64,000 nucleotides of DNA. Origin: Azoarcus sp. Aa7 (GTDB taxonomy: Bacteria; Pseudomonadota; Gammaproteobacteria; Burkholderiales; Rhodocyclaceae). This document shows positions 5,609-42,190 of this stretch, piece after piece. The DNA lies in contig NZ_QVLR01000006.1 of assembly GCF_014822185.1 (NCBI RefSeq), forward strand, positions 62,001 to 126,000. The letters are read 5' to 3'. The notes under the pieces were generated by a model. It did not search any database. It worked only from the letters and a program-made list of their open reading frames with translations, and was not told where the DNA came from. The stretch's first letter is position 1. Each line of letters begins with the position of its first letter. A program made the translations under genes and the position numbers.

Positions 5609-6313
5609 ATGGGCGGGAAGTTCCTGTTCGACGGCCGGCCGGTTCCGTTCGAGGAAGGCCAGACGATACTCCAGGCCGCGCGCGCGGCCGGTCACTATAT
5701 TCCGCATCTGTGCTGGCATCCGGATTTTCCGCCGCACGGCTCGTGCAAGCTGTGCATCGTGAAGGTCGGCGGGCGCCATGTTTCGTCCTGCGCATTGCCG
5801 GCGCGCGACGGGATGGAGGTGGAAAGCAACACGCCGGAGATCAACGGCGAACGGCGCGCGCTACTGCAGATGCTGTTCGTCGAGGGCAACCACTTCTGTC
5901 CTTCGTGCGAGAAGAGCGGCAACTGCCAGCTGCAGGCACTGGCCTACGAGCTGGACATGAGCAGCGCGCGTTTTGCACACTTCTATCCGGACCGTCCGGT
6001 GGATGCGTCGCATCCCGACGTGCTGCTGGATTTCAATCGCTGCATCTTCTGCGAGCTGTGCGTGCGGGCGTCGCGGGACGTGGATCACAAGGGCGTGTTC
6101 GCGCTGACCGATCGCGGCATCCGCAAGCATCTGGTCGTGAATGCGGAGTCGGGGCGGCTTGCCGATACGGACTTCGCGGTGAGCGACCGGGCCGCGGACA
6201 TTTGCCCCGTCGGCGTGATCCTGCACAAGCGGGTGGGTTTCGCGCTGCCGATCGGCGAGCGCAAGTACGACGAGGCCTCGATCTGCACGGTTGCGATGGA
6301 GAAGGGCGAATGA
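5609..6313 (+). CDS. hoxU: NAD-reducing hydrogenase, electron-transfer subunit HoxU
   Basis: Iron-sulfur subunit linking HoxF to the HoxYH hydrogenase module. The 234-residue length is that of characterised HoxU. The N-terminal 2Fe-2S ferredoxin fold carries CWHPDFPPHGSCKLC, followed by the His-plus-three-Cys cluster segment (HFCPSCEKSGNC) and a 4Fe-4S segment (CIFCELCVRAS, with CPVG downstream). The start follows the hoxF stop by two bases and is preceded by GGGAGGAGG inside the end of hoxF, so translation is probably coupled. Its stop overlaps the hoxY start in ATGA. Confidence 0.93.
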   Translation: MGGKFLFDGRPVPFEEGQTILQAARAAGHYIPHLCWHPDFPPHGSCKLCIVKVGGRHVSSCALPARDGMEVESNTPEINGERRALLQMLFVEGNHFCPSCEKSGNCQLQALAYELDMSSARFAHFYPDRPVDASHPDVLLDFNRCIFCELCVRASRDVDHKGVFALTDRGIRKHLVVNAESGRLADTDFAVSDRAADICPVGVILHKRVGFALPIGERKYDEASICTVAMEKGE

Positions 6314-6864
6314 GCGACAGCATCGGTATGCCTCGCGTGCGTGTTGCGACCACCTCGCTGGCGGGGTGCTTCGGTTGCCACATGTCCTTCCTCGACATGG
6401 ACGAGCGCCTGTTCGAGCTGGTGAAGGTCGTCGAGTTCGACCGCTCGCCGCTGACCGACATCAAGCATTGCGGGCCTTGCGATATCGGCCTGATCGAGGG
6501 GGGCGTGTGCAACGCCGAGAATGTGCACGTGCTGCGCGAGTTCCGCCGCAACTGCAAGACGCTGGTCGCGGTCGGCGCGTGCGCGATCAATGGCGGTCTG
6601 CCGGCACAGCGCAATCATCTCGATCTCGGCGACTGCCTGCAGCAGGTGTACGTGAAGCGCGACGGCATCGAGGAGGGGGGCGTTCCGGACGATCCGGAAC
6701 TGCCGCTGCTGCTCGACCGGGTCCACCCGATTCACGAGGTGGTGCGGGTCGATTACTTCATACCGGGATGTCCGCCGTCGGGCGAAGCGATCTGGAAGTT
6801 CCTGACCGACCTGATCGGCGGTCGGACGCCGCGCCTGGCGCATCCCTTGTTGCGTTTCGATTGA
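6310..6864 (+). CDS. hoxY: NAD-reducing hydrogenase, small subunit HoxY
   Basis: Small subunit of the hydrogenase module, holding the proximal 4Fe-4S cluster next to the NiFe site. Cluster cysteines lie in AGCFGCHMSFLD near the N terminus, in GACAINGG and in IPGCPPSG. At 184 residues it is short and lacks the Tat signal of membrane-bound hydrogenase small subunits, which fits a soluble cytoplasmic enzyme. It overlaps hoxU by four bases. Confidence 0.93.
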   Translation: MSDSIGMPRVRVATTSLAGCFGCHMSFLDMDERLFELVKVVEFDRSPLTDIKHCGPCDIGLIEGGVCNAENVHVLREFRRNCKTLVAVGACAINGGLPAQRNHLDLGDCLQQVYVKRDGIEEGGVPDDPELPLLLDRVHPIHEVVRVDYFIPGCPPSGEAIWKFLTDLIGGRTPRLAHPLLRFD

Positions 6865-6872
6865 GGTCTCGC

Positions 6873-8333
6873 ATGGATTCGTCGCTTGAAACCGCTGCCG
6901 ACAGGGAGCATCTGCGCCGGGTCGTGATCGACCCGGTGTCGCGGGTCGAAGGGCACGGCAAGGTGACGCTGCTGCTCGACGAAGACGACCATGTCCGCGA
7001 GGCGCGTCTCCACATCGTGGAGTTCCGCGGCTTCGAGGTGTTCATCCAGGGGCGCCCGTACTGGGAGGTGCCGGTGATGGTGCAGCGCCTGTGCGGCATC
7101 TGTCCCGTCAGCCATCACCTTGCGGCATCGAAGGCGATGGACCGCGTGCTGGGCATTCCGGTCACGCGTTCGGCCGAGAAGCTGCGCCGCCTGATGCATT
7201 ACGGGCAGATCCTGCAGTCGCACGCATTGCACTTCTTCCACCTGTCGTCGCCGGACCTGCTGTTCGGCTTCGAGTCCGAAGTCGGCAAGCGCAACATCGT
7301 CGGTGTCGCCGCGGCCTACCCGGAGGTGGCGCGGCAGGGGGTGCTGCTGCGGAAATTCGGGCAGGAGGTGATCCGCGCGACGGCCGGCAAGCGCATCCAC
7401 GGTACCGGCTCGGTTCCGGGCGGAATGAACCGGCACCTCGCGGTGGAGGACAGGGACGCGTTGCGCGCGGAGATCGACCACATGGTGGAGTGGAGCCGCG
7501 CGGCGGTCGAGTTGGTGAAGCGGCTGCATCGGGCCGATCCCGCCCTGTACGACGAGTTCGGGCGGTTCCGCGCCAACGTGATGAGCCTCGTGCGGGCCGA
7601 CGGGGCGATGGATCTGTATCACGGGGCTTTGCGCTTCCGCGATGCGGACGGAAAGATCCTGGTGGACAAGGTGCCCGACCAGTCGTACCGCAGCCTCATC
7701 CGGGAGCAGGTCAAGCCCTGGAGCTACATGAAGTTCCCTTACCTGCAGCAGCTGGGGCCGGACGAGGGGTGGTACCAGGTGGGGCCGCTCGCGCGGGTGC
7801 AGAACTGCGATTTCATTCCGACGCCGCTGGCCGAGGCCGAGCGCCGCGAGTTCATCGATCACGGCCGAGGCGAACCGGTCAGGGCGACGCTGGCCTATCA
7901 CTGGGCGCGGATGATCGAGATGCTGCATGCAGCGGAAACGATCCGCGACCTGCTGGGGGACGGCGACCTGCTCGAGGGCGCGCTGCTGGCGGATGGCGAG
8001 CGCGGGAACGAGGGGGTCGGCATCATCGAGGCGCCGCGCGGAACGCTGATCCATCATTATCAGGTCGGTGACGACGACCTCGTCACGATGTGCAACCTGA
8101 TCGTGTCGACGACGCACAACAACCAGGCGATGAACACCGCGGTGCGGGAAGTCGCGCGTCGCTACCTGGACGGGCGGAAGCTGACGGAGGGCTTGCTCAA
8201 TCACATCGAGGTGGCGATCCGGGCTTACGACCCGTGCCTGTCCTGCGCGACCCACGCGCTGGGCAAGATGCCGCTGATGCTGGAACTGGCGGATGCCGGC
8301 GGGGAGGTCGTGGATCGGGTGGTGCGTGACTGA
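6873..8333 (+). CDS. hoxH: NAD-reducing hydrogenase, large subunit HoxH
   Basis: Catalytic subunit that binds the NiFe(CN)2CO centre. The four nickel ligands are visible: RLCGIC (C74, C77) near the N terminus and DPCLSCATH (C455, C458) near the C terminus. A 25-residue extension follows the final histidine of that motif (H461), the peptide removed by the dedicated endoprotease once nickel is inserted, so the precursor is intact. The length of 486 residues is normal for HoxH. The gene overlaps the start of hoxW by eight bases, which links it to its own maturation enzyme. Confidence 0.95.
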   Translation: MDSSLETAADREHLRRVVIDPVSRVEGHGKVTLLLDEDDHVREARLHIVEFRGFEVFIQGRPYWEVPVMVQRLCGICPVSHHLAASKAMDRVLGIPVTRSAEKLRRLMHYGQILQSHALHFFHLSSPDLLFGFESEVGKRNIVGVAAAYPEVARQGVLLRKFGQEVIRATAGKRIHGTGSVPGGMNRHLAVEDRDALRAEIDHMVEWSRAAVELVKRLHRADPALYDEFGRFRANVMSLVRADGAMDLYHGALRFRDADGKILVDKVPDQSYRSLIREQVKPWSYMKFPYLQQLGPDEGWYQVGPLARVQNCDFIPTPLAEAERREFIDHGRGEPVRATLAYHWARMIEMLHAAETIRDLLGDGDLLEGALLADGERGNEGVGIIEAPRGTLIHHYQVGDDDLVTMCNLIVSTTHNNQAMNTAVREVARRYLDGRKLTEGLLNHIEVAIRAYDPCLSCATHALGKMPLMLELADAGGEVVDRVVRD

Positions 8334-27741: not shown

Positions 27742-27824
27742 ACCCGCAATGTCCGCCGGCTGGCATACCGGCGCGGGCGGACGCAATGCAAACACCAATA
27801 CGACAACACAGAGGAGACAGATTC

Positions 27825-29327
27825 ATGGAGCGTTACCACGGACAACTGCTGAGCGAAGGCACGCGGCGCTTTCTGGAGCGCCCGCGGCGCATGCTGATCG
27901 GCGCGGAGTGGGTCGAGGCGGCGAGCGGCGAGACACTGGCGGTGATCGATCCGGCCAACGGCGAGAAATTCGCCAGCGTGCCGGCAGGCGCTGCGGCGGA
28001 CATCGACCGTGCCGTCGCTGCGGCGCGCCGTGCCTTCGAATCGGGTGATTGGCCGAAGATGCGCCCGGTGGACCGCGAGCGCCTGCTGCTGAAGTTCGCC
28101 GATCTCGTAGAAGCGAACGCGCAGGAGTTGGCCGAGATCGAGTCGCTCGACAACGGCAAGCCGGTGACGATGGCGCGCCACGTGGATGTTGCGCTGGTGG
28201 TGGACTTCCTGCGCTACATGGCGGGCTGGGCGACCAAGATCGAAGGTTCGACGATGGACGTGTCGGTGCCGCTCATCCGCGACCGCGAGTTCTTCGGCTT
28301 CACGCGGCGCGAGCCGGTGGGGGTGGTCGGCGCGATCATCCCGTGGAACTTCCCGCTGCTGATGGCGGCGTGGAAGGTCGCGCCGGCACTGGCGACGGGC
28401 TGCACGATGGTGTTGAAACCGGCCGAGGAGACGCCGCTGTCCGCGCTGCGCTTTGCTGAACTGGCGCTCGAGGCGGGTTACCCGGCGGGCGTACTGAACG
28501 TCGTGACCGGCCTCGGCCATACGGCGGGCGCGGCGCTCGCGTCGCACAAGGGCGTCGAGAAGGTCGCCTTTACCGGCTCGACCGAGATCGGCAAGCTCGT
28601 CGGCAAGGCCGCGCTCGACAACATGACGCGCGTGTCGCTGGAGCTCGGCGGCAAGAGCCCGGTGATCGTGCTCGACGACGCGGACGTGAGTCAGGCCGCG
28701 GCGGGCGCCGCGCAGGCGATCTTCTTCAACCAGGGCCAGGTTTGCACGGCAGGCTCGCGCCTCTTCGTGCACAAGAGCCGCTTCGATGAAGTTGTCGAGG
28801 GGCTGGCGGGCATCGCGGCGGGCATGAAGCTCGGCGCCGGCATCGACCCGGCCACGCAGATCGGCCCGCTGGTGTCGGCGACGCAGCAGAAGCGCGTGCT
28901 GGGCTACATCGAGAGCGGTTTTGCGGAAGGCGCCCGGGCGGCGACCGGCGGTGCGGCGGGCGAGGGCGCAGGCTACTTCGTGAAACCGACCGTGCTGGTC
29001 GATACCTCCGACGACATGAAAGTCGTGCGCGAGGAAATCTTCGGGCCGGTCGTCGTCGCGATGCCCTACGACGATCTGGACGAAGTCGCGCGCCGTGCGA
29101 ACGACACGCCCTACGGCCTCGCGGCGAGCATCTGGTCGAACGACCTGTCGCGCGTGCATCGCCTGATCCCGAAGATCCAGGCCGGCACCGTGTGGGTGAA
29201 CTGCCACAACATCCTCGACAACGCGATGCCCTTCGGCGGCTTCAAGCAGTCCGGCATCGGGCGCGAGATGGGGCGCGCGGTGCTCGATCTGTACACCGAG
29301 TCCAAGTCCGTGATCATGGCGCTGTGA
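27825..29327 (+). CDS. NAD(P)-dependent aldehyde dehydrogenase, probable partner of the amine dehydrogenase
   Basis: 500-residue aldehyde dehydrogenase. The catalytic cysteine lies in FFNQGQVCTAGSRL, the general base Glu in LELGGKSPVIV, the cofactor segment is FTGSTEIGK and the entry motif is IIPWNFPLLM. Primary amine oxidation by the qhp enzyme releases aldehyde in the periplasm, and this cytoplasmic enzyme (no signal peptide) would oxidise it to the acid after uptake. Sequence resembles phenylacetaldehyde/betaine aldehyde dehydrogenases, but the substrate cannot be fixed. A GAGGAGA site lies at 27811-27817. Confidence 0.85.
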   Translation: MERYHGQLLSEGTRRFLERPRRMLIGAEWVEAASGETLAVIDPANGEKFASVPAGAAADIDRAVAAARRAFESGDWPKMRPVDRERLLLKFADLVEANAQELAEIESLDNGKPVTMARHVDVALVVDFLRYMAGWATKIEGSTMDVSVPLIRDREFFGFTRREPVGVVGAIIPWNFPLLMAAWKVAPALATGCTMVLKPAEETPLSALRFAELALEAGYPAGVLNVVTGLGHTAGAALASHKGVEKVAFTGSTEIGKLVGKAALDNMTRVSLELGGKSPVIVLDDADVSQAAAGAAQAIFFNQGQVCTAGSRLFVHKSRFDEVVEGLAGIAAGMKLGAGIDPATQIGPLVSATQQKRVLGYIESGFAEGARAATGGAAGEGAGYFVKPTVLVDTSDDMKVVREEIFGPVVVAMPYDDLDEVARRANDTPYGLAASIWSNDLSRVHRLIPKIQAGTVWVNCHNILDNAMPFGGFKQSGIGREMGRAVLDLYTESKSVIMAL

Positions 29328-29394
29328 GTGCGGGGCGCCGCCTCGTGGCCATTGAGGGGGCTGCGCATTTCCTCACCGGAGAGTGGAGACAGAA

Positions 29395-31002
29395 GTGAAG
29401 CCTGAGACAAGAAAACGTAGGCGCAGCCACCTGCGCATCGCCGGCGCAGTGGCGCTGGCGCTGGGAATCGCCGGCGCGGTGCCCGCGCGTGCAGCCACCG
29501 ATCCGGGCCGTGACGTGATCGACAAGAAGTGTGCGAGCTGTCACCTCGAGGACGGCAAGCTCACGCGCATCCCGGAGATCCGCAAGTCGCCCGAAGGCTG
29601 GGACATGACCGTCGTGCGCATGGGCATCTGGCACAAGGTCGAGCTGACGGCGGACGAGCGCCGCGCGGTGGTGAAATACCTCGCCGACCGGCAGGGCCTC
29701 GCGCCGTCGGAGAGCGCGGCGTTCCGCTTCCTGACCGAGCGGCGGCCGAACATGCAGGACGCGCCGCCCGACGACGAGCTCGCACAGATGTGTGCCCGTT
29801 GCCACAGCTACGGCCGGGTCGCGCTGCAGCGGCGCGACGAGGACGAGTGGAGGAAGCTGATGCATACCCACCTCGGTCAGTTTCCGAGCGCGGAATACTC
29901 GGCGCTCGGGCGTGACCGCAACTGGTGGGAGATCGCCCGCGACAAGATGCCGGGGCGGCTTGCCGGCCTGTATCCGAAGAACACCGACGCGTGGCGCGAC
30001 TGGAGTCGCGCGAAGCACCGCCCGGCCGATGGGAGCTGGGTCGTCGCCGGCGAGCGGCCGGGCTGGGGGCCCTACACCGGCACGATGACGGCCCGTGCGA
30101 AGGGCAAGGACCAGTACGAGGTCAGCTACGAGTTCCGCTTCGGCGCCGGCAATACGGTGCGCGGCCACGGCGAGGCGGTGATCTACACCGGCTACGAATG
30201 GCGCGGCTCGGCAAAGCTTGGCAACGAGGACACGCGCTCGATCTTCGCACTCAACGAGGACGGCTCGCGCATCGACGGGCGGTGGTTCCTGAAGGGGGCC
30301 GACGAGATCGGTGCAACGTTCGAGGCGGTGCGCGCGGACAAGTCCGCGAAGAATGCGCTCGTGTCGGTGAGCCCGTCGATGCTGCGTGCGGGCGACACGG
30401 CGACTGTGACGCTCGCGGGCGCCGGGCTCGATCCGAAGGTCGACCTCGGGCCGGGCGTGGAGGTCGTCGAATGGCTCGGCAAGTCCGCTGAGGAATTGAA
30501 GCTTCGCGTGAAGGTCGCGGCCGATGCGACGTCGGGGCTGCGCAAGATCGCCGTCGGCGGGCGCGAGTCCGACAGGACGGTTGCCGTGTATCGCCAGATC
30601 GACTCGGTGCGCGTCGAGCCGGCCTTCGGCATCGCGCGCGTCGGCGGCGGCACGAATCCGCCGGTCTCCGCGCAGTTCGATGCCGTGGCCTTCCTCGACG
30701 GCGCGGACGGCAAGTCCGGCACCGACGACGACGTGCGCCTGGGTAGCGTTCCGGCGAAGTGGTCGACCGAGCCCTTCGACGAGCGCGCCAAGCACGACGA
30801 GGACCTGAAGTTCGCCGGCCACATGGAGCCGCACGGCCAGTTCCTGCCGTCCTTCGCCGGGCCGAACCCCAACCGCCGCGGCCTCAATAACGTCGGCAAC
30901 CTGTCGGTCGTCGCGACCGTTGCGGACGGCGGGCGCTCGCTGAACGCGAAAGGCCAGTTGGTCGTCACCGTGCAGCGCTGGAACCCGACGCCGCTGCGCT
31001 GA
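29395..31002 (+). CDS. qhpA: Quinohemoprotein amine dehydrogenase, alpha (dihaem) subunit
   Basis: 535 residues. A signal peptide (about 1-34, ending ARA-A) directs it to the periplasm. Two c-type haem sites are present, CASCH (C46, C49, H50) and CARCH (C133, C136, H137), in the N-terminal cytochrome domain, followed by beta-rich domains as in the Paracoccus and Pseudomonas enzymes. The haems take electrons from the CTQ of the gamma subunit and pass them to a soluble cytochrome c or cupredoxin. GTG 29395 with GGAGA upstream is the likely start. First qhp structural gene, 67 bp after the aldehyde dehydrogenase. Confidence 0.93.
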   Translation: MKPETRKRRRSHLRIAGAVALALGIAGAVPARAATDPGRDVIDKKCASCHLEDGKLTRIPEIRKSPEGWDMTVVRMGIWHKVELTADERRAVVKYLADRQGLAPSESAAFRFLTERRPNMQDAPPDDELAQMCARCHSYGRVALQRRDEDEWRKLMHTHLGQFPSAEYSALGRDRNWWEIARDKMPGRLAGLYPKNTDAWRDWSRAKHRPADGSWVVAGERPGWGPYTGTMTARAKGKDQYEVSYEFRFGAGNTVRGHGEAVIYTGYEWRGSAKLGNEDTRSIFALNEDGSRIDGRWFLKGADEIGATFEAVRADKSAKNALVSVSPSMLRAGDTATVTLAGAGLDPKVDLGPGVEVVEWLGKSAEELKLRVKVAADATSGLRKIAVGGRESDRTVAVYRQIDSVRVEPAFGIARVGGGTNPPVSAQFDAVAFLDGADGKSGTDDDVRLGSVPAKWSTEPFDERAKHDEDLKFAGHMEPHGQFLPSFAGPNPNRRGLNNVGNLSVVATVADGGRSLNAKGQLVVTVQRWNPTPLR

Positions 31003-31021: not shown

Positions 31022-32452
31022 ATGACTACAACATTGCAGGTACAACCCCACAATTACCGCGCGATCCGCAAGGGCGACCGGCAGGTGCTGCTGCACGTGC
31101 CGACGACCTCGATCTTCGAGCTCGACCCGGCCGCGTCCGATCTGCTCGGGTTGTTCGAGGCGAGCCCGGCGGTCAGCGCGGACGACATCCAGTCGCGCTT
31201 CGACGGCCGCTACACGCCCGCCGAACTGTGCGACAGCCTCTCCGACTTCATCGACCTCGGCATCGTCGCGCCGCAGCCCAAGCACTACGAGATCCCGGCC
31301 CGCGTCGTCGAGCGTTCGCCGTTGAAGACCCTGGTGCTGACGCTCACCACCGGCTGCAACCTCGGTTGCAGCTACTGTTACCGCGAGGACCTGACCTCGC
31401 CGAAGAACTCGTCGGTGATGGACTTCCAGACCGGCTCGCGCTCCATCGACCTGCTGATGGAGGAGGCGAGTGAGCAGAACCGCGTCGGCATCGTGTTCTT
31501 CGGCGGCGAGCCGCTGACGCGCATCGCGGTCATCCGCGACCTCGTCGAGTATGCCGAGGAGAAGGCCGCGGCGGTCGGCAAGGAAATCGATTTCTCGCTG
31601 ACGACCAACGCGACGCTGCTCACCGACGAGATCATCGCCTTCCTCGACGCGCACCGCTTCGGCATCACCATCAGCATCGACGGCGACCAGGCGCAGCACG
31701 ACCGCCATCGCCGCACGATCGCCGGCGGCGGCACCTACAAGACGGTCGCGATGCGCGTGAAGCGCCTGCTCGAACGCTACCAGTCCAAGCCCGTCGGCGC
31801 CCGCGTCACGCTCGCGTCCGGCAACCTCGACGTCGCCGGCATCTACAAACACCTGCACGACGAACTCGGTTTCTTCGAGGTCGGCTTCGCGCCGGCGACG
31901 GCCGGACCGGATTCACCGGTGGGCCTGACCCGGGAAGAGCTCGACACCGTCTTCGAAGCCTTCAAGGCGCTCGGCCGCGAGTACGTGTCCGAGGCCAAGC
32001 GCGGCAAGCGTCACGGCTTCGGCAATATGCAGCAGCTGATGACCGACCTGTGGATGGGTACGCGCAAAGTCCTGCCCTGCGGTGCCGGCGTCGGCCTGCT
32101 CGCGGTCGGCACCAGCGGCAAGATCTCGCTGTGCCACCGCTTCACCGGCTCCGAGCTCGAGACCTTCGGCGACGTCACGAGCGGCATCGAACGCGAGTCG
32201 CTTTCGACGTTCATGACCCGTGCGCAAGCCCCACACAGCGCCTGCCAGGTCTGCCCCGCGCGCAGCCTGTGCGCAGGCGGCTGCTACCACGAATCCTATT
32301 CGCGTAGCGGCGACCCCTTCCAGCCGACCTTCGAGTACTGCGACCAGATCCGCGAATGGACCGCGTTCGGCCTCGAAGCCTTCGGCGACATCGCGCTCGC
32401 CAATCCGGCGTTCTTCAATGGCGCCATCGAACAAAGGAGTGCCCTGCAATGA
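31022..32452 (+). CDS. qhpD: Radical SAM/SPASM maturase of the amine dehydrogenase gamma subunit
   Basis: 476 residues. The radical SAM cluster motif is CNLGCSYC (C112, C116, C119), and a SPASM region provides auxiliary clusters ([29 protein letters not shown] and a final YCDQ). The N-terminal 90 residues form a PqqD-like leader-recognition segment. In Paracoccus QhpD makes the three intrapeptidyl Cys-to-Asp/Glu thioether bridges in QhpC. The stop overlaps the qhpC start in ATGA, so enzyme and substrate peptide are translationally coupled. Confidence 0.94.
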
Positions 32453-32769
32453 AACGACTGCGAGCCCTGAACCACAAGGCGCACCTGATCGAGCAGGCGG
32501 CCAGCGACGGCCACCGCGAGGAAGTCCAGCTGATGAGCAGCGTCGTCGGCTGCACGACGACCTTCGACCCCGGCTGGGAGGTCGATGCCTTCGGCGGGCT
32601 GGCCAGCCTGTGCCAGCCGATGGAGGCGGATCTCTACGGCTGCACCGACCCGTGCTGGTGGCCGGCGCAGCTCGCCGACAGCCTGAACACCGCGCGCGAC
32701 TGGACCGACGGCAAGAATTCGGCGCTGCGCGACTGGCGCGAACTGCAGACCCTGTTCCCGGGAGACTGA
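32449..32769 (+). CDS. qhpC: Quinohemoprotein amine dehydrogenase, gamma subunit (CTQ-bearing)
   Basis: 106-residue precursor with a leader of about 28 residues and no Sec signal, as in the known system. All crosslink residues are present: thioether pairs C35-E44, C55-D61 and C69-D77, and the cofactor pair C65-W71 that becomes cysteine tryptophylquinone. Intervals equal those of the Paracoccus protein (Cys7-Glu16, Cys27-Asp33, Cys41-Asp49, Cys37-Trp43). W71 must also gain two oxygens to become the quinone, the step normally ascribed to QhpG, which is missing here. Confidence 0.95.
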
Positions 32770-32772
32770 GCG

Positions 32773-33870
32773 ATGAGGATCCTGCCCATCAATAAGGCGC
32801 GCATGGCCTTGCTCGCGCTGTGTTGCGCCGCCGCTTCGCTGCCGGCGGTTGCGGCCGAATACCTGCTGACCGTCACGCGGCCGAACAACCTGCACATCGT
32901 CGACCCGGCCAAGCGCGAAGTCCTGCGCACGATCACGCTGCCGGGCGACGGGATCCCCGGTGCGGTCGCGGTGCCCAAGGACGGCAAGACCGCCTACGTG
33001 CTGACGAACCGCATGGAAAGCGTCGTCGGCGTCGACCTCGATACCGGCAAGCCGGTCTTCCGCGCCGATTTCTCGACGCCGCAGCGTCGCGTGAAGGGTT
33101 TCTTCGCGATCGCCGTGAGCGAAGACGGCAAGGAGCTGTATGCGCACCAGGCGCCGGTGCAGCTCGGGCGCTCGGAGTACAAGGTCGAGGACACTTACAT
33201 CGCGGTCTTCGACACCGCCGACGGCATGAACGCCAAGCCCCGCCGCACCTTCCCGGCGCCGCGCCGCATCACCGTGATGGCCGCGACCGGCAAGCCCGAC
33301 CACCTCGTCGCGCTGGGCTGGGACATGTACCTCTTCAACACGAAGACCGGCAAGATGGAACAGACCTTCCCGCTGCGCCACTGGAACCGCCCCGGCATCG
33401 CGGAGCCGGATACGCTCGCGATGTGGGGCACCTTCGAGCAGGCGCGCGCGGTGTCGACGCCGTACTTCGTGGCGAAGACCGATGTGCCGCCCGACTCGCC
33501 CGAGGCCTTCAAGGCCGGCATCGCGGTGTTCGACCTCGACGCCGAAACGCTGAAGGTGAAGGAGTTCGAGAACGCGACGACGGTGATGTTCTCGTCCGTG
33601 ATCAACCCGGTCAAGCGCAACGAGGCCTTCCTCGTGATGAACCAGCTGACCAAGGTCGATACCGAGACCGGCCAGGTCCTCAAGCGCAAGGAGCTCGAAC
33701 AGACCTTCTACACCATCAACATCTCCGGCGACGGCAAGGAGCTTTACGTCGGTGGCGCGCTCGACAAGGTCGCGATCTACGATGCGGATACGTTCGAGAA
33801 GAAGGGCGAGATCACGATGCCGGGCGGTGCCGACCAGTCGATCGGCTGGATGCGCGTGGTGAAGCGCTGA
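32773..33870 (+). CDS. qhpB: Quinohemoprotein amine dehydrogenase, beta subunit
   Basis: 365 residues with a signal peptide (about 1-28, ALLALCCAAASLPAVAA). The remainder is a seven-bladed beta-propeller with repeating units such as HIVDPAKREVLRTI, VGVDLDTGKPVF and YVGGALDKVAIYD. In the crystal structures of this enzyme class the beta propeller packs over the gamma subunit and shapes the substrate pocket. It follows qhpC by three bases and precedes the transporter gene by ten. Confidence 0.93.
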   Translation: MRILPINKARMALLALCCAAASLPAVAAEYLLTVTRPNNLHIVDPAKREVLRTITLPGDGIPGAVAVPKDGKTAYVLTNRMESVVGVDLDTGKPVFRADFSTPQRRVKGFFAIAVSEDGKELYAHQAPVQLGRSEYKVEDTYIAVFDTADGMNAKPRRTFPAPRRITVMAATGKPDHLVALGWDMYLFNTKTGKMEQTFPLRHWNRPGIAEPDTLAMWGTFEQARAVSTPYFVAKTDVPPDSPEAFKAGIAVFDLDAETLKVKEFENATTVMFSSVINPVKRNEAFLVMNQLTKVDTETGQVLKRKELEQTFYTINISGDGKELYVGGALDKVAIYDADTFEKKGEITMPGGADQSIGWMRVVKR

Positions 33871-33880
33871 GGGCAGGGCG

Positions 33881-35599
33881 GTGATCGGGCTGCGCGCGGA
33901 TCGTTCCCTGCCCCTGCAGGCCCTCGGCTGGGCCCTGCCGCTGGTACGCGAACGCGCCGGGGCGGTCGCGGGCGTCGTCGCCCTGTCCTGCATCGGCTCG
34001 GCCGCGGCGCTGCTGCCGCCCTACCTCATGCAACGCCTCGTCGACGAAGGCATCGTCGGCGGCAAGGTCGATCTCGTGCTGCAGCTCTGCGCGGCCTTCC
34101 TCGTCCTGATGCTCGGCGGCGTGCTCGTCGAGACGCTGTCCCGCCTCACCTACCTGAAGCTCTCCGCGCATGTCCTCTTCGGCCTGCGCGAGCAGGTCTG
34201 GCGGCACCTGCAGACGCTCGCGCCGACCTATTACGCCCGCACCCGCGGCGGCGAGATCCTGTCGCGGCTCGACGGCGACGTCGCCGAGGTGCAACGTTTC
34301 GCCCTCGATGCGCCGATGGCGCTGCTGAACGGTGCGTTCTCGCTGGTGGTCGCATTGGTACTGATGCTGTCGCTGAGTCCCGTCCTCACCGCGCTCGTGT
34401 TCGCGCTTGTGCCGCTTCAGGTTGCGGCGCTGATGTTCTCTCGCCCGTGGCTGGAAAAGAGCACGCAGGCCCTGCGCAAAGAGAGCGCCGTGATGTCGAG
34501 CTTCTTCGTCGAATCGTTGCGCGCGATGAAGTTCATCCAGGCATCCAATGCCGCCCGCCGACAGGAGGCGGGCCTGCGCGCGCACCATGGCGACTACTTC
34601 GCCGCGCTGCGCCGCTCGCAGCTCGCCTCGCTCGGCGCGGGGGGCCTGCAGCGCGTGCTGTCCGGCCTCGGCGTGCTGCTGGTGTTCGCGGTCGGCGGAT
34701 CGCTGGCGGCGGGCGGGGAGCTGTCGGTTGGCGTCGTCGTCGCCTTCATCGCCTACACGACGCGTGCCGCGGGGCCGCTGCAGACGCTGGCGGGCGTGTT
34801 CATGGGTTGGCAGCGCGCGAAAGTGAGCCTGCAGCGCATCCTGGAACTCGCTGCGGAACAGCCGACCGTCGCTTCGCCGGCGCAGCCCGTCCCGCTCGCG
34901 CAGCCGGTCCGCGGCGAGTTGCGGCTCGACGCCGTGCGCTTCGGCTATGGCGCCGAGGCAGTGCTCGAGGGCGCGACGCTCGACGTGCCGGCCGGCACCA
35001 AGCTCGCCCTCGTCGGCGCGTCCGGTGCGGGCAAGTCGACGCTGATCGATCTCCTGCAACGCCATTACGACCCGCAGGCCGGGCGGCTGCTCCTCGACGG
35101 CGTGCGCCTCGATCTGCTCGACCTCGTCGAGCTGCGCCGCGAGGTCGTCGTCGTCGATCAGGAACCGGTGCTGATGCCCGGCAGCGTCCGCGACAACCTG
35201 CGCTTCGTCGCCCCTGAGGCCGATGAGCCGGCGCTGCTGCGCGCGCTCGACCTTGCCGGTCTCGCGAACTTCGCCCACGCCGGCGGCCTCGACAAGCCTG
35301 TCGGCGCATCGGCTTCCGCGCTGTCGCGCGGCGAGCGCCTGCGCATCGCGCTCGCCCGCGCGATCCTGCAGGACCCGGCGGTGCTGATCCTCGATGAGAC
35401 GACCTCCGGACTGGATCTGCCGGTCGCGCAGGCGATCATCGCCGCGGTAGATCGCGTCTTCGTCGGTCGCACCCGCATCGTCATCACCCACAACCTCGCG
35501 TCCGTCGGCGCGGTCGACCGCGTCGTCGAGCTGCGCGACGGCCGGCTCGTCGAGCCCGAGCCGGCCCGGCCCGCCGCACCGCTATTGAGGGTCGTATGA
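33881..35599 (+). CDS. qhpF: ABC transporter (fused membrane and ATPase domains) of the qhp system
   Basis: 572-residue half-transporter: about six membrane helices (roughly 30-300) and an ATPase domain with Walker A GASGAGKST, signature LSRGERL and Walker B VLILDETTSG, followed by a switch histidine in ITHN. In Paracoccus QhpF is needed to move the processed, crosslinked gamma subunit to the periplasm. The signature reads LSRGE rather than LSGGQ, an accepted variant. The start is GTG 33881 and its stop overlaps qhpE in ATGA. Confidence 0.9.
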   Translation: MIGLRADRSLPLQALGWALPLVRERAGAVAGVVALSCIGSAAALLPPYLMQRLVDEGIVGGKVDLVLQLCAAFLVLMLGGVLVETLSRLTYLKLSAHVLFGLREQVWRHLQTLAPTYYARTRGGEILSRLDGDVAEVQRFALDAPMALLNGAFSLVVALVLMLSLSPVLTALVFALVPLQVAALMFSRPWLEKSTQALRKESAVMSSFFVESLRAMKFIQASNAARRQEAGLRAHHGDYFAALRRSQLASLGAGGLQRVLSGLGVLLVFAVGGSLAAGGELSVGVVVAFIAYTTRAAGPLQTLAGVFMGWQRAKVSLQRILELAAEQPTVASPAQPVPLAQPVRGELRLDAVRFGYGAEAVLEGATLDVPAGTKLALVGASGAGKSTLIDLLQRHYDPQAGRLLLDGVRLDLLDLVELRREVVVVDQEPVLMPGSVRDNLRFVAPEADEPALLRALDLAGLANFAHAGGLDKPVGASASALSRGERLRIALARAILQDPAVLILDETTSGLDLPVAQAIIAAVDRVFVGRTRIVITHNLASVGAVDRVVELRDGRLVEPEPARPAAPLLRVV

Positions 35600-36291
35600 G
35601 CGTGACAATCGGCATCATCGACGGCGGCTTCATCGGCGTACCCTCGCAAGCACTGCATCGGGCGGCGAGCTTCATTCCCGCCGCCGACGGAAGCGTCGGT
35701 CGCGAGCCTGCAGGCGGTCGCCCGCTGCCGCACGGCGAAGCGGTGGCCGCGCTCGTGCTCGAGGCGGCACCCGCGGCCCGTCTCATCGACGCGCGCATCG
35801 CGTCGCACCGGCATGCGCCGTCGCCGGCCATGGTCGCCGCGGCGATCGAGTGGTGTGCGGACGAGGGCGCGCGCGTCGTCAACCTCAGCCTCGGCCTGCT
35901 CGAAGACCGCACGGTGCTGCGCGAAGCCTGCGCACGCGCGCTCGCGCACGGCGTCGTGCTCGTCGCGGCGGCGCCTGTGCGCGGCACGCCGGTCTTCCCT
36001 GCGGCCTATCCCGGCGTGCTCGCCGTCAGCGGCGATGCGCGCTGCGCGCCCGGACAGTGGTCGCTACTCAAGGGCGAGACGTCGGGCGGTGCCGGCTGGG
36101 GCTGTTCCCCTGCCGGACCGGGGAAGACGGCCGGAGGCGCGAGCATGGCGACGGCGCGCTTCACCGGCATCGTTGCCCGTCTTTGCCTGCAATACCCTGC
36201 CGCGGACCCACAAGGGCTCGCGGATCACCTCGCCGCCCGCGCCAGCTGGCATGGGCGGGAACACAAGAGAATCGCGGAGATCGATTCATGA
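35596..36291 (+). CDS. qhpE: Subtilisin-like serine protease removing the QhpC leader
   Basis: 231 residues, compact subtilase fold with the full triad: D9 in GIIDGG, H46 in LPHGEAVA and S183 in GGASMATA. No signal peptide or propeptide, so it is cytoplasmic. In Paracoccus QhpE cuts the leader peptide from the crosslinked gamma subunit. It overlaps qhpF by four bases and the next gene, a U32-family gene, by four bases, so all three are probably translated as a coupled set. Confidence 0.9.
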   Translation: MSVTIGIIDGGFIGVPSQALHRAASFIPAADGSVGREPAGGRPLPHGEAVAALVLEAAPAARLIDARIASHRHAPSPAMVAAAIEWCADEGARVVNLSLGLLEDRTVLREACARALAHGVVLVAAAPVRGTPVFPAAYPGVLAVSGDARCAPGQWSLLKGETSGGAGWGCSPAGPGKTAGGASMATARFTGIVARLCLQYPAADPQGLADHLAARASWHGREHKRIAEIDS

Positions 36292-37190
36292 CAAGCACAC
36301 AGCACACCCCCACCCCCGACAGCACTACCCGACCGATCGAACTGGGCTTCGCGCTCGTCGACGAACGCGAACTCGCTGCCTTCGCGCACCACGACCGCCT
36401 CACGCGCGACGACTACCTCGACCAGCTCGGCGAAGCCCGCGACTACGTCACCGTGCCCGACGGCGCCGAGCCGACGCACTTCTTCCTCGGCAGCGAGTTC
36501 TGCGAACACCTGCTGCCGAGCGTCGAGTCCATCGACCGCGCCGTCGCGCTGTGCGAACGCTGGGGCCTCGCCTTCGGCCTCGTCACGCCGATCGCCTGCG
36601 ACGGCCTCTTCGACCCATTGCGCGCCGCGCTCGCGCGCCTGCCGGCGGGCTCCGAAGTCACCGTCAACGACTGGGGCGTCGCGCGCCTCGTGCAGCGGGA
36701 GTTTCCCGACCTGCGCCCGGTCGCGGGGCGGCTCCTCGGCAAGATGCTGAAGGACCCGCGGCTGCCGTCCGCGACCTGGGCGCGCATGTACCCCAACGGC
36801 CTGCGCGCCGGCCCCTTCCGCGACATCCTCGACGGGCTGGGCATCGGCCGCCTGGAGCTCGACTTCCCGCCCTTCGGCGCGGCCGACATGTACGCCGGCA
36901 TCGACTTTCCGGTCGGCGTGCGCGCGCCCTACGGTTACATCGCCAAGGGGCGCATCTGCAAGCTCGGCTCGCTGTCGCTCGACACGCCGGAAAAATTCTC
37001 GCCCGGCCACAAGTGTCGCCGTGAATGCCTCGGCTTCAACGAGGTCGGCGCACGTCCCGGCACGCACGAACTCCATACCTCGCAGCGCGGCAACACGATG
37101 TACTACCGCCACGCCGCGGGCATGGCCGCAGCAGTCGCCGAGGCCGTCAGGAACGGCTGGGTCAACCGCATCGTCCTGTCCGGAGCCTGA
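36288..37190 (+). CDS. U32-family protein, UbiV-like iron-sulfur hydroxylase candidate
   Basis: 300 residues of the peptidase-U32 fold, not a known qhp gene. Cysteines at 72 (FLGSEFCEHLL), 224 (GRICKLG), 243 and 247 (HKCRREC) reproduce the UbiV arrangement of one early cysteine, one about 150 residues later, then C-X3-C. In UbiV these bind a 4Fe-4S cluster. UbiU-UbiV together hydroxylate ubiquinone precursors without oxygen. The gene overlaps qhpE by four bases and is followed by a UbiU-like gene. I infer that the pair hydroxylates the QhpC tryptophan instead of the missing QhpG. A general ubiquinone role is the main alternative, but the operon position argues against it. Confidence 0.75.
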   Translation: MTSTQHTPTPDSTTRPIELGFALVDERELAAFAHHDRLTRDDYLDQLGEARDYVTVPDGAEPTHFFLGSEFCEHLLPSVESIDRAVALCERWGLAFGLVTPIACDGLFDPLRAALARLPAGSEVTVNDWGVARLVQREFPDLRPVAGRLLGKMLKDPRLPSATWARMYPNGLRAGPFRDILDGLGIGRLELDFPPFGAADMYAGIDFPVGVRAPYGYIAKGRICKLGSLSLDTPEKFSPGHKCRRECLGFNEVGARPGTHELHTSQRGNTMYYRHAAGMAAAVAEAVRNGWVNRIVLSGA

Positions 37191-37191
37191 C

Positions 37192-38238
37192 ATGAAGATT
37201 ACCGCCCCCATCAGCACCCCTGCCGAAGTCGAACCGCTGGTGCGCGCCGGCGCGCGCGAACTCTACTGCGGCGTCGTGCCGCCGGACTGGATCCAGCGCT
37301 TCAACACTTCCGGCGTGAATCGCCGCGTGTTCGGCAACCTCAACGGCTACGCCGACCTCGAACGCGTCGTCGACAAGGCCACCGCGCTCGACGCCGAAGT
37401 CTTCCTCGTCCTCAACGCGCAGCAATACGGCGAACAGCACCTCGACGCGCTCACCGAGATCGGCGCGCGTTTCCGCAGCATCGGCGGCAAGGCCGCGATC
37501 GTCGCCGACATTTCGCTGATCGCCTCGCTCGCCGCGAACGTGCCGGACCTCGACATCCACGTGAGTTCCGTGGCGACCTGCCGCAACGTCGAATCCGCGC
37601 GCTTCTTCGCCGCGCTCGGCGCCAACCGCATCATCCTGCCGCGCGATGTCACGGTCGCCGAGATCGCCGCGATCACGACCGAGTTGCCCGAACTCGACGT
37701 CGAAGCCTTCGTGCTCAACGACGGCTGCGTGTTCGAAGAGGGCGCCTGCCACACGGTGCATCTGCCGATGAACAAGGGCGGGCCGATCTGTATCGACAAC
37801 TACCAGTTCGAATACCAAGCCACCGGCGGCGGCCAGCCGCACGAGCGCGCGCTGCGCCGCCTCGAACAGAACGACCTCGATTACAAGCGCTGGCTCTGGT
37901 ACCGCTTCGGCAACGGCTTCTCGGTCGCACCCAACGGCTATCCGTGGGGACCCTGCGGCACCTGTGCGATGCCCGCGATGCACGCGGCGGGCGTGCATTC
38001 GGTGAAGATCGCCGGCCGCGAGGGCGCGAGCGAGCGCAAGATCAAGAGCGTCGAACTCGTCGCCCGCGTGCTGGAGCGGATCGAGGCGGGCGAGCCGGAA
38101 CACGCGGTGCGCGAGTTTGCCGTCGGTCTGCGCGACGCACCGAGCCACTGCGCCAGCGGCTACATGTGCTACTACCCCGAGGTGAGGAGCCGGCAGGCGA
38201 CCGGTGATGCCGAAGGAAAGGTTCTGACGGCCGTCTGA
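37192..38238 (+). CDS. U32-family protein, UbiU-like iron-sulfur hydroxylase candidate
   Basis: 348 residues. Candidate cluster cysteines are C179 and C186 (NDGCVFEEGACHT, the C-X6-C spacing of UbiU), C200 (GPICID) and C255/C258 (GPCGTC). The segment DIHVSSVATCRNVESARFF and RIILPRDVTVAEI are family-typical barrel strands. It starts one base after the preceding UbiV-like gene and closes the operon. Further cysteines at 320 and 326 (HCASGYMC) may be structural. A protease role is unlikely because U32 proteins with this pattern are iron-sulfur oxygen-transfer enzymes. The substrate is inferred, not shown. Confidence 0.75.
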   Translation: MKITAPISTPAEVEPLVRAGARELYCGVVPPDWIQRFNTSGVNRRVFGNLNGYADLERVVDKATALDAEVFLVLNAQQYGEQHLDALTEIGARFRSIGGKAAIVADISLIASLAANVPDLDIHVSSVATCRNVESARFFAALGANRIILPRDVTVAEIAAITTELPELDVEAFVLNDGCVFEEGACHTVHLPMNKGGPICIDNYQFEYQATGGGQPHERALRRLEQNDLDYKRWLWYRFGNGFSVAPNGYPWGPCGTCAMPAMHAAGVHSVKIAGREGASERKIKSVELVARVLERIEAGEPEHAVREFAVGLRDAPSHCASGYMCYYPEVRSRQATGDAEGKVLTAV

Positions 38239-38580: not shown

Positions 38581-38650
38581 AAAAGAAAAAGCCCGGACGT
38601 TTGACGGTCCGGGCTTAAATCCACACCAAAGGAGGAGGGTGGAGGAGACG
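38581..38650 (-). ncRNA. Anti-SD small RNA, copy B
   Basis: About 70 nt on the minus strand, starting near GAACCG. Two CUCCUCC motifs (complements of 38641-38647 and 38631-38637), then TTTGGTGTGGAT and a terminator with 10-bp arms 38589-38598 and 38607-38616, followed by a T-rich tail. UCCAC and GUGGA on either side of the second motif can pair, which would present CCUCCUCC in a hairpin loop. Its terminator arms (GCCCGGAC/GTCCGGGC) differ from copies A, D and E (GCCCGAGC/GCTCGGGC) while keeping all pairs. Confidence 0.85.
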
Positions 38651-38656
38651 GTTCAA

Positions 38657-38685
38657 ATCTTAACGACCGTGCTTGTGCATTGCAA
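38657..38685 (-). promoter_or_regulatory. Sigma-70-like promoter of small RNA copy B
   Basis: -35 TTGCAA (38685-38680), 17-bp spacer, -10 TAAGAT (38662-38657) on the minus strand. An A/T tract and an AAATTTGT-ACG-ACAAATTT palindrome (38688-38706) lie just upstream of -35, and GATCAG (plus strand) at 38717-38722 is at the same distance as in copies C and D. Confidence 0.75.
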
Positions 38686-38875
38686 TAAATTTGTACGACA
38701 AATTTTTTTATCGCAGGATCAGGCGCGCGAATGCTCCGTAATGGCGGCCATGCTCCCGGTCAGTCAGCGGAACGAATGCACGCGGGTGCCGCCGAGTTTG
38801 GCGCGCGATGTTCCAGGGACGGGGCTGGTGCCGATCGTGTTCCGGCCATGGCTGCCGAAGGCTCGGGCGCCGAAA

Positions 38876-38942
38876 AAGAAAAAGCCCGGACGTTTGACGG
38901 TCCGGGCTAAATCCACACCAAAGGAGGAGGGTGGAGGAGACG
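38876..38942 (-). ncRNA. Anti-SD small RNA, copy C
   Basis: About 67 nt on the minus strand. CUCCUCC motifs complement 38933-38939 and 38923-38929; TTTGGTGTGGAT follows; terminator arms at 38883-38891 and 38900-38908 with T5-C-T5 after them. Nearly identical to copy B in the transcribed part, but the promoter spacer and the sequence between the copies differ, so the two are not simply a recent tandem duplication. Confidence 0.85.
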
Positions 38943-38948
38943 GTTCAA

Positions 38949-38977
38949 ATACTAGCGAACCGGCTTGTGCGACGCAA
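38949..38977 (-). promoter_or_regulatory. Sigma-70-like promoter of small RNA copy C
   Basis: -35 TTGCGT (38977-38972), 17-bp spacer, -10 TAGTAT (38954-38949) on the minus strand. The dyad TTGCGTCGCACAA overlaps the -35 box. ACAAAT at 38990-38995 and GATCAG at 39009-39014 (plus strand) keep the spacing seen in copies B and D. Confidence 0.8.
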
Positions 38978-39056
38978 TAATAATGCACTACAAATTTTTC
39001 TATGCGTCGATCAGATCTCCGTATGGACTAGTAGTGACGCGGATTTTTTGCCGAGT

Positions 39057-41635: not shown

Positions 41636-41654
41636 AGACCCCTGCGGACGCAGA

Positions 41655-41722
41655 AAAGAAAAAGCCCGAGCGGCTGAGGCTCGGGCTTAAATCCACACCA
41701 AAGGAGGAGGGTGGAGGAGACG
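41655..41722 (-). ncRNA. Anti-SD small RNA, copy D
   Basis: About 68 nt on the minus strand. CUCCUCC motifs complement 41713-41719 and 41703-41709, then TTTGGTGTGGAT and a terminator with 10-bp arms 41662-41671 and 41679-41688 plus a T-rich tail. It lies 20 bp beyond the stop of the convergent LysR gene, and its stem may also terminate that gene poorly, lacking a U tract in that direction. Confidence 0.85.
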
Positions 41723-41728
41723 GTTCAA

Positions 41729-41757
41729 AGCATACGGTACCGTATGCTGCGACGCAA
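41729..41757 (-). promoter_or_regulatory. Sigma-70-like promoter of small RNA copy D with an 18-bp palindrome
   Basis: -35 TTGCGT (41757-41752), 17-bp spacer, -10 TATGCT (41734-41729) on the minus strand. The spacer and the -10 box lie in the perfect palindrome GCATACGGTACCGTATGC (41730-41747), absent from the other copies. ACAAAT at 41770-41775 and GATCAG at 41789-41794 (plus strand) are in register with copies B and C. Confidence 0.75.
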
Positions 41758-41856
41758 TAAGCTTGTCCTACAAATGTTTTTATCGCGCGATCAGAATTCC
41801 CTATGTAACGGCAGGGCAACGCATCCGGGGCGCGAAATCGCCGAGGGCCGGCGGAA

Positions 41857-41926
41857 AAGAAAAAAGCCCGAGCACGGTTACGGGCTCGGGCTAAATCCAC
41901 ACCAAAGGAGGAGGGTGGAGGAGACG
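41857..41926 (-). ncRNA. Anti-SD small RNA, copy E
   Basis: About 70 nt on the minus strand. CUCCUCC motifs complement 41917-41923 and 41907-41913, then TTTGGTGTGGAT. Terminator arms 41865-41873 and 41884-41892 enclose a ten-base loop unlike those of the other copies, followed by T6-C-T4. It is the most upstream copy in the direction of transcription. Confidence 0.85.
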
Positions 41927-41932
41927 GTTCAA

Positions 41933-41961
41933 ACTCTATTGGAAGGGCTTGTGCGATGCAA
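41933..41961 (-). promoter_or_regulatory. Sigma-70-like promoter of small RNA copy E
   Basis: -35 TTGCAT (41961-41956), 17-bp spacer, -10 TAGAGT (41938-41933) on the minus strand. An AT-rich tract (41975-41992) follows upstream; GATAAC at 41993 takes the position of GATCAG in the other copies. Confidence 0.7.
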
Positions 41962-42190
41962 CATGTTCAGTCCCAAAATATTTTTATATTCTGATAACAT
42001 GGTTAAATAATACATAAAAATCAATAACGTGTGCGGGCGGTGCGATGCGTTTGGTATGTTGCGCTGCGATGCCGAGAGGTGGTGCGCAGGACGAAATGGC
42101 CCGTTGCGCCGCCGTCCGTCTGGCGACCCGGTCGATTATGTCGCGGATGGCCCGCACCCCAAGGCGCCGGGAAAGGGCACGCGTGCGCGT
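41962..42190. other. Intergenic region upstream of small RNA copy E
   Basis: The first 70 bp are AT-rich and hold the upstream promoter element of copy E. From 42030 to 42190 the base composition returns to GC-rich; I see no credible gene, terminator or repeat there. Confidence 0.4.

Follow-up and report, generated by a model that had tools for sequence, protein, structure and literature searches.

CTQ, the cysteine tryptophylquinone cofactor of quinohemoprotein amine dehydrogenase (QHNDH), is built from residues of the QhpC subunit. By the account given in PMC7876137, the peptidyl tryptophan dihydroxylase QhpG (PDB: 7ctq) draws both of the oxygens that it adds from O2. UbiU-UbiV are described as O2-independent hydroxylases in ubiquinone synthesis (PMC6747719), and TrhP and RlhA, which belong to the U32 family, hydroxylate RNA without O2 in a prephenate-dependent manner, as described in PMC11574389. 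Here we analyzed the qhp operon in a 64,000-nucleotide stretch of Azoarcus sp. Aa7 (contig NZ_QVLR01000006.1, positions 62,001 to 126,000; hereafter the window), which ends in two additional genes, UV and UU. We consider it likely that UV-UU is a heterodimeric iron-sulfur U32 hydroxylase that adds both oxygens to Trp71 of QhpC without O2, in parallel with UbiU-UbiV and ubiquinone. The proposal is based on the operon position of the pair, a genome in which QhpG was not found, co-occurrence exclusive to QhpD genomes within the sampled family, near-complete coverage of the qhp genomes that lack QhpG, invariant cysteines and distinctness from UbiU.

The pair resembles UbiU-UbiV in being two adjacent genes for U32-type proteins with an equal cysteine order in each, and UU is clearly homologous to UbiU. 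It differs in that UU forms a separate clade far under the UbiU cut-off, UV is not detectably similar to UbiV, and the pair is linked to qhp. With QhpG it shares the proposed substrate and the operon role, hydroxylation of the CTQ tryptophan, whereas QhpG is an O2-using flavoprotein of an unrelated family. TrhP and RlhA act as single proteins, and the TrhP of the window's genome is a separate gene. MauG, LodB and GoxB likewise assist tryptophylquinone formation from peptidyl tryptophan, but they are heme or flavin enzymes according to the Discussion of PMC7876137 and are not related to the pair by family name.

Results

Two additional genes close a complete qhp operon

The features of the operon, all on the + strand, are as follows.

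36288..37190, +, UV, a divergent U32-type protein of 300 amino acids with UbiV-like cysteine order, C72 / C224-X18-C243-X3-C247 (open reading frame)
37192..38238, +, UU, a UbiU-related U32 protein of 348 amino acids, C179-X6-C186-X13-C200 and C255-X2-C258 (PF01136, 141.5 bits)
29383..31002, +, qhpA, alpha subunit of QHNDH, GTG start (TIGR03908, 735 bits, cut-off 274)
31022..32452, +, qhpD, radical SAM thioether maturase (TIGR03906, 744 bits, cut-off 453)
32449..32769, +, qhpC, gamma subunit (NF037958, 163 bits, cut-off 50; codons checked)
32659..32661, +, Trp71 codon of qhpC, the proposed substrate residue (TGG; CWW motif)
32773..33870, +, qhpB, beta subunit (TIGR03907, 501 bits, cut-off 223)
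33881..35599, +, qhpF, ABC exporter (ABC transporter domains and operon position)
35596..36291, +, qhpE, subtilisin-like leader protease (NF049966, 239 bits, cut-off 165)
27825..29327, +, aldehyde dehydrogenase (ALDH) gene 5' of qhpA (open reading frame; start uncertain, alternative ATG at 27786)

An earlier note on this DNA had read qhpA-D-C-B-F-E as complete and in that order, and this was confirmed: QhpA, D, C, B and E pass their NCBIfam equivalog cut-offs (the QhpC query began one codon upstream of its ATG). For QhpF, no NCBIfam family exceeded its cut-off among the matches listed (25 of 183 families). The UV start overlaps the qhpE stop by 4 bases, and UU begins one base past the UV stop. 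The note's description of two U32 genes ending the operon is therefore borne out for the gene order, the overlap and the family of UU, but UV has no Pfam or NCBIfam match of its own.

QhpG was not found in the window's genome

The genome (5.39 Mb, 107 contigs, completeness 100) is congeneric with Aromatoleum aromaticum EbN1 (Aromatoleum group). Searching all of it with a 17-row QhpG profile gave no matches at E ≤ 1e-20, and QhpG (NF049967) was not found. The note's observation that the window holds no QhpG-type monooxygenase gene thus extends to the whole genome, including a homolog elsewhere, which would have spoken against the proposal. A single PF04820 match fell short of the cut-off (20.7 versus 21 bits, over 62 positions) and was not reported by the QhpG profile. 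This profile gave the solved QhpG, 7ctq, 526 bits and the next protein, CmlS, 121 bits; matches above 150 bits were therefore counted as QhpG. Among 65 genomes searched whole, the tally at E ≤ 1e-20 was 39, which became 38 when G491, with an only match of 120.6 bits, was dropped. The NCBIfam QhpG cut-off of 240 is passed by both a diverged QhpG (L066, 415.7 bits) and one unlinked to qhp (L143, 549.5 bits).

Full-length solitary QhpG genes (L143–L146) occur in four Aromatoleum-group genomes whose qhp operon carries UV-UU (G440, G563, G609 and G729). They lie about 2 Mb from qhp or on another contig, and no qhp gene was seen near them in fetched stretches of 11–19 kb.

The pair is tied to qhp

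UU was counted at E ≤ 1e-40. Of 395 genomes sampled from the family, 55 have QhpD (54 over the cut-off) and 36 have UU, and every one of these 36 also has QhpD. We infer that the QhpD and UU counts cover the same sample from the 395 genomes that each drew and the agreement of the handles shown. Annotation covered 69 regions, each 20 kb or less, around QhpD matches. UV adjoins UU on the same strand in all 50 UU rows, which represent 49 distinct places (49/49; L085 and L152 are the same locus). The distance from UU to a qhp gene is at most 3 kb in 39 rows and at most 3.7 kb in another three; for the other eight, no qhp gene was seen within the fetched stretch. One of these stretches (L154) stops just past UV, and the other seven have an ALDH gene nearby. 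Six of the eight pairs share a contig with qhpD, at a distance of approximately 12–30 kb (G406, G444, G491, G499, G685 and G696), and two are on a different contig from qhpD (G433 and G708). The analysis supports a UV-UU pair that is tied to qhp and distinct from the organism's own UbiU and UbiV.

The pair and QhpG largely alternate

Both profiles were run against 65 whole genomes, of which 26 have UU only, 24 QhpG only, 14 both and one, a 680-contig assembly, neither. Leaving out the window's genome and four found through UV, the 60 QhpD genomes divided into 24 UU only, 24 QhpG only, 11 both and one neither (Fisher p = 2.2e-7, kinship ignored). Counted by genus, there were eight with the pair only, 11 with QhpG only, two with both and none with neither (p = 2.2e-4, kinship also ignored). 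UU is carried by 26/27 QhpG-less QhpD genomes in the 65-genome set and by 34/35 QhpG-less qhp genomes overall, when eight from the second phylum described below are added; conversely, 24/38 genomes with QhpG have no UU. In a broad sample of the phylum of the window's genome, QhpD was found in 7/398 genomes, and the six other than the window's have QhpG and no UU. On a QhpD tree of 84 rows, each trait requires at least nine changes. States were assigned per genome, so that each two-locus genome is represented by two rows; four plasmid rows were coded as "QhpG only", their chromosomes not having been searched.

The earlier note had predicted mutual exclusion of qhpG and the pair. In its strict form this fails on the 14 genomes with both, whereas replacement of QhpG by the pair agrees with the 26/27 QhpG-less genomes and with all nine qhp genomes of the second phylum. 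In A. aromaticum EbN1 (G496) there are two qhpD loci, with the pair at both and QhpG at one. Two QHNDHs reportedly initiate anaerobic degradation of aromatic amines in EbN1, going by the title of a 2019 paper by Schmitt (J Bacteriol, doi 10.1128/JB.00281-19) as it appears in reference lists.

UU is present in all nine QhpC genomes found in a sample of a second phylum

The CTQ subunit QhpC was found in 9/345 genomes sampled from the phylum to which an uncultured Desulfococcus metagenome-assembled genome (MAG) belongs. UU is present in 9/9 of these and QhpG in 0/9, the best QhpG matches being only 60 and 59 bits; leaving out the Desulfococcus MAG itself (G794), which was found through UV, the count is 8/8 with UU. 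The pair sits between qhpB and qhpF in seven of the nine. In G994, the contig breaks off right after qhpB, with UU on another contig. G871 has two QhpA-C-B loci (L170 and L171) with QhpD, E and F not seen in the fetched stretches, and its UU is on another contig. UbiU over the cut-off was found in none of the seven of these genomes that were searched; ubiquinone is therefore unlikely to be the target of the pair there.

Two loci have a gene for a small CXXCH cytochrome between qhpB and the pair (L167 7209-7730 and L172 9138-9656), the second weakly NrfH-like (42 bits, cut-off 134). In the genomes concerned, these cytochromes may accept electrons from QHNDH.

UV is remotely related to UU

Cysteines C72, C224, C243 and C247 of UV are conserved in 51/51 aligned sequences, and its remaining two are far less kept (C89, 16/51; C104, 19/51). 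The order is that of UbiV and the spacing is different (CXnCX18CX3C in 51/51 UV sequences versus CXnCX12CX3C). No Pfam or NCBIfam family matched UV at E ≤ 0.001; the curated UbiV families NF047965 and NF011991 gave no match at this threshold and their cut-offs were not reached. A sequence search of the PDB also returned no match. The UV profile matched the UU profile with a probability of 92.6% (E = 4.6e-7), and it is only via this match that UV reaches the U32 family (PF01136). UV is thus termed UbiV-like because of its cysteine order, its pairing with UU and the remote profile match to UU, not because of similarity to UbiV.

UU is a U32 protein outside the UbiU clade

UU belongs to the Pfam U32 family (PF01136, Peptidase_U32; 141.5 bits, cut-off 22.4). 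Its C179, C186, C200, C255 and C258 are cysteines in 51/51 sequences, and four further cysteines, which are extra relative to UbiU, are nearly invariant (C26, C320 and C326, 50/51; C130, 49/51). UU has the UbiU-type CX6C and further cluster-type cysteines (C200 and C255/C258), with a different spacing after CX6C (CX6CX13CX54C versus CX6CX16CX38C in UbiU). The cysteines of the pair had been said to match UbiV and UbiU in order and spacing; they are present as codons, equal in order and conserved in 51/51, but the spacing differs from both.

The UU profile matched UbiU with a probability of 99.7% (E = 9.2e-27). UU itself scored 76.3 bits against the UbiU family NF047963, under the curated cut-off of 440, and did not cluster with true UbiU: in a quick tree with long branches, 18 UU rows formed one clade (100) and 15 UbiU rows another (98). 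Orthology of the pair to UbiU and UbiV was rejected on the scores, the tree and the true copies elsewhere in the genome. The best PDB fold match to a structure model of UU (mean predicted local distance difference test score, pLDDT, 76.9) was the U32 protein 5d88; a sequence search of the PDB gave a single match (E = 0.2), and plasmid sequences gave no match at E ≤ 1e-20.

At another locus (L161 4475-9448; G000, contig C78), four U32 genes lie within 5 kb; three of them were scanned, and none reaches an NCBIfam cut-off.

Discussion

A candidate O2-independent route to CTQ

By position, Cys65 and Trp71 of QhpC are the CTQ residues. The CWW motif is present in all 25 rows of a QhpC alignment (24 distinct, because L021 and L172 are one place), and the CTQ cysteine in 23/24 distinct rows, all but L163. 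QhpG takes its oxygens from O2 and therefore should not serve in anaerobic cells; a cell that lacks QhpG or oxygen requires another route. In the proposed scheme, QhpD would form the thioether crosslinks in QhpC, and UV-UU, with one iron-sulfur cluster each, would hydroxylate Trp71 in the cytoplasm. The oxygen donor would be a molecule other than O2, probably prephenate by analogy with U32 hydroxylases, for which PMC11574389 describes it as the proposed donor. QhpE would then cut off the leader and QhpF export the subunit, and the hemes of QhpA may complete the oxidation to the quinone, a step that the Discussion of PMC7876137 suggests for the QhpG route. Cluster binding, the dimer, the substrate, the donor and the order of steps are inferred in this scheme.

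The QhpC of one operon that carries the pair (L163, frame 5692-7440; G1138) has threonine in place of the CTQ cysteine, with the CWW tryptophans intact. Its product is possibly a quinone without the cysteine bond.

On balance, we lean towards the broader view that UV-UU is a U32-type dihydroxylase of peptidyl tryptophan that works without O2 and would be the first of its kind to act on a protein. It could represent an older anaerobic route to CTQ, with QhpG as the aerobic replacement and both retained by some facultative bacteria, and the extra cysteines of UU may hold a second cluster. An older route is proposed because the pair occurs in all nine qhp genomes among the 345 sampled in the phylum of the Desulfococcus MAG.

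Several results weigh against hydroxylation of QhpC by UV-UU. QhpG and the pair occur together in 14/65 genomes, and the pair could therefore have a role beside QhpG. An independent-pairs test on the QhpD tree found 0 pairs differing the same way, 1–3 opposite and 4–6 not differing; the median p of 0.25 is not significant, with too few pairs for power. The UV profile had no significant match to UbiV (E = 0.18), faring no better there than against QhpG (E = 0.23); as a yardstick, UbiU versus UbiV gave a probability of 46% (E = 2e-4). A structure model of UV (mean pLDDT 82.9) gave only weak barrel-like matches. The UU model has low confidence at 177–203, the cysteine stretch, and at 240–254, which bears on the cluster geometry. 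In G970 (L168, about 6184-6186), an in-frame TAG cuts UU before C320. The predicted enrichment of the pair in anaerobes was gauged in part, through dsrA, which is over the cut-off in three of the nine QhpC genomes from the phylum of the Desulfococcus MAG and not in the other six; therefore only the three look like sulfate reducers by this test.

Co-occurrence with QhpG and the four extra UU cysteines (49–50 of 51), which could mean other chemistry, would also fit a pair that acts in QHNDH maturation at a step other than that of QhpG (one hydroxylation, the final oxidation or the Cys-Trp bond), with a further enzyme for the rest. We regard this as unlikely, because UU is present in 34/35 genomes that lack QhpG and absent from 24/38 that have it, the pattern of alternatives and not of successive steps. 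Less probable still is a duplicated UbiU-UbiV that merely accompanies qhp and has ubiquinone, or a small molecule from amine breakdown, as its substrate. UU is a remote relative of UbiU, and no more than 500 bases separate it from an ALDH gene in 11/50 rows; however, the same genome encodes true UbiU (563.5 bits, cut-off 440) and UbiV (386.5 bits, cut-off 275) on another contig (C80), against 76 bits for UU. Furthermore, the seven searched genomes from the phylum of the Desulfococcus MAG have the pair without UbiU over the cut-off, and in the family sample UU appeared only in genomes with QhpD. The name that Pfam gives to the family of UU, Peptidase_U32, might suggest true peptidases that aid QhpE in processing QhpC, the least credible of these readings: QhpE is already in the operon, and the invariant cysteine sets resemble those of the U32 iron-sulfur hydroxylases as described in PMC6747719. 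A peptidase role was rejected. Tryptophan hydroxylation by UV-UU remains our preferred reading, and the earlier interpretation is partly supported: largely right, but not in its exclusive form.

If correct, the proposal would account for how a protein-derived quinone is built in cells without oxygen and would add proteins to ubiquinone and RNA as substrates of U32 hydroxylases that work without O2. A soluble substrate amenable to genetics would also become available for this chemistry, whose mechanism has yet to be established. The pair could also flag anaerobic amine oxidation in genomes whose lack of QhpG would otherwise cast doubt on QHNDH function. Among the open PMC papers listed, no title or abstract opening links U32 proteins to QHNDH; the Schmitt 2019 paper may already discuss these genes.

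Neighboring features

The ALDH gene 5' of qhpA is likely to encode the next catabolic step, and ALDH homologs adjoin qhp or the UV-UU pair at many loci. On the 3' side of the operon, a block of genes is flanked by a 152-base direct repeat in four copies (window 38582-39025 and 41654-42009), which are 67–78% identical to the reference copy.

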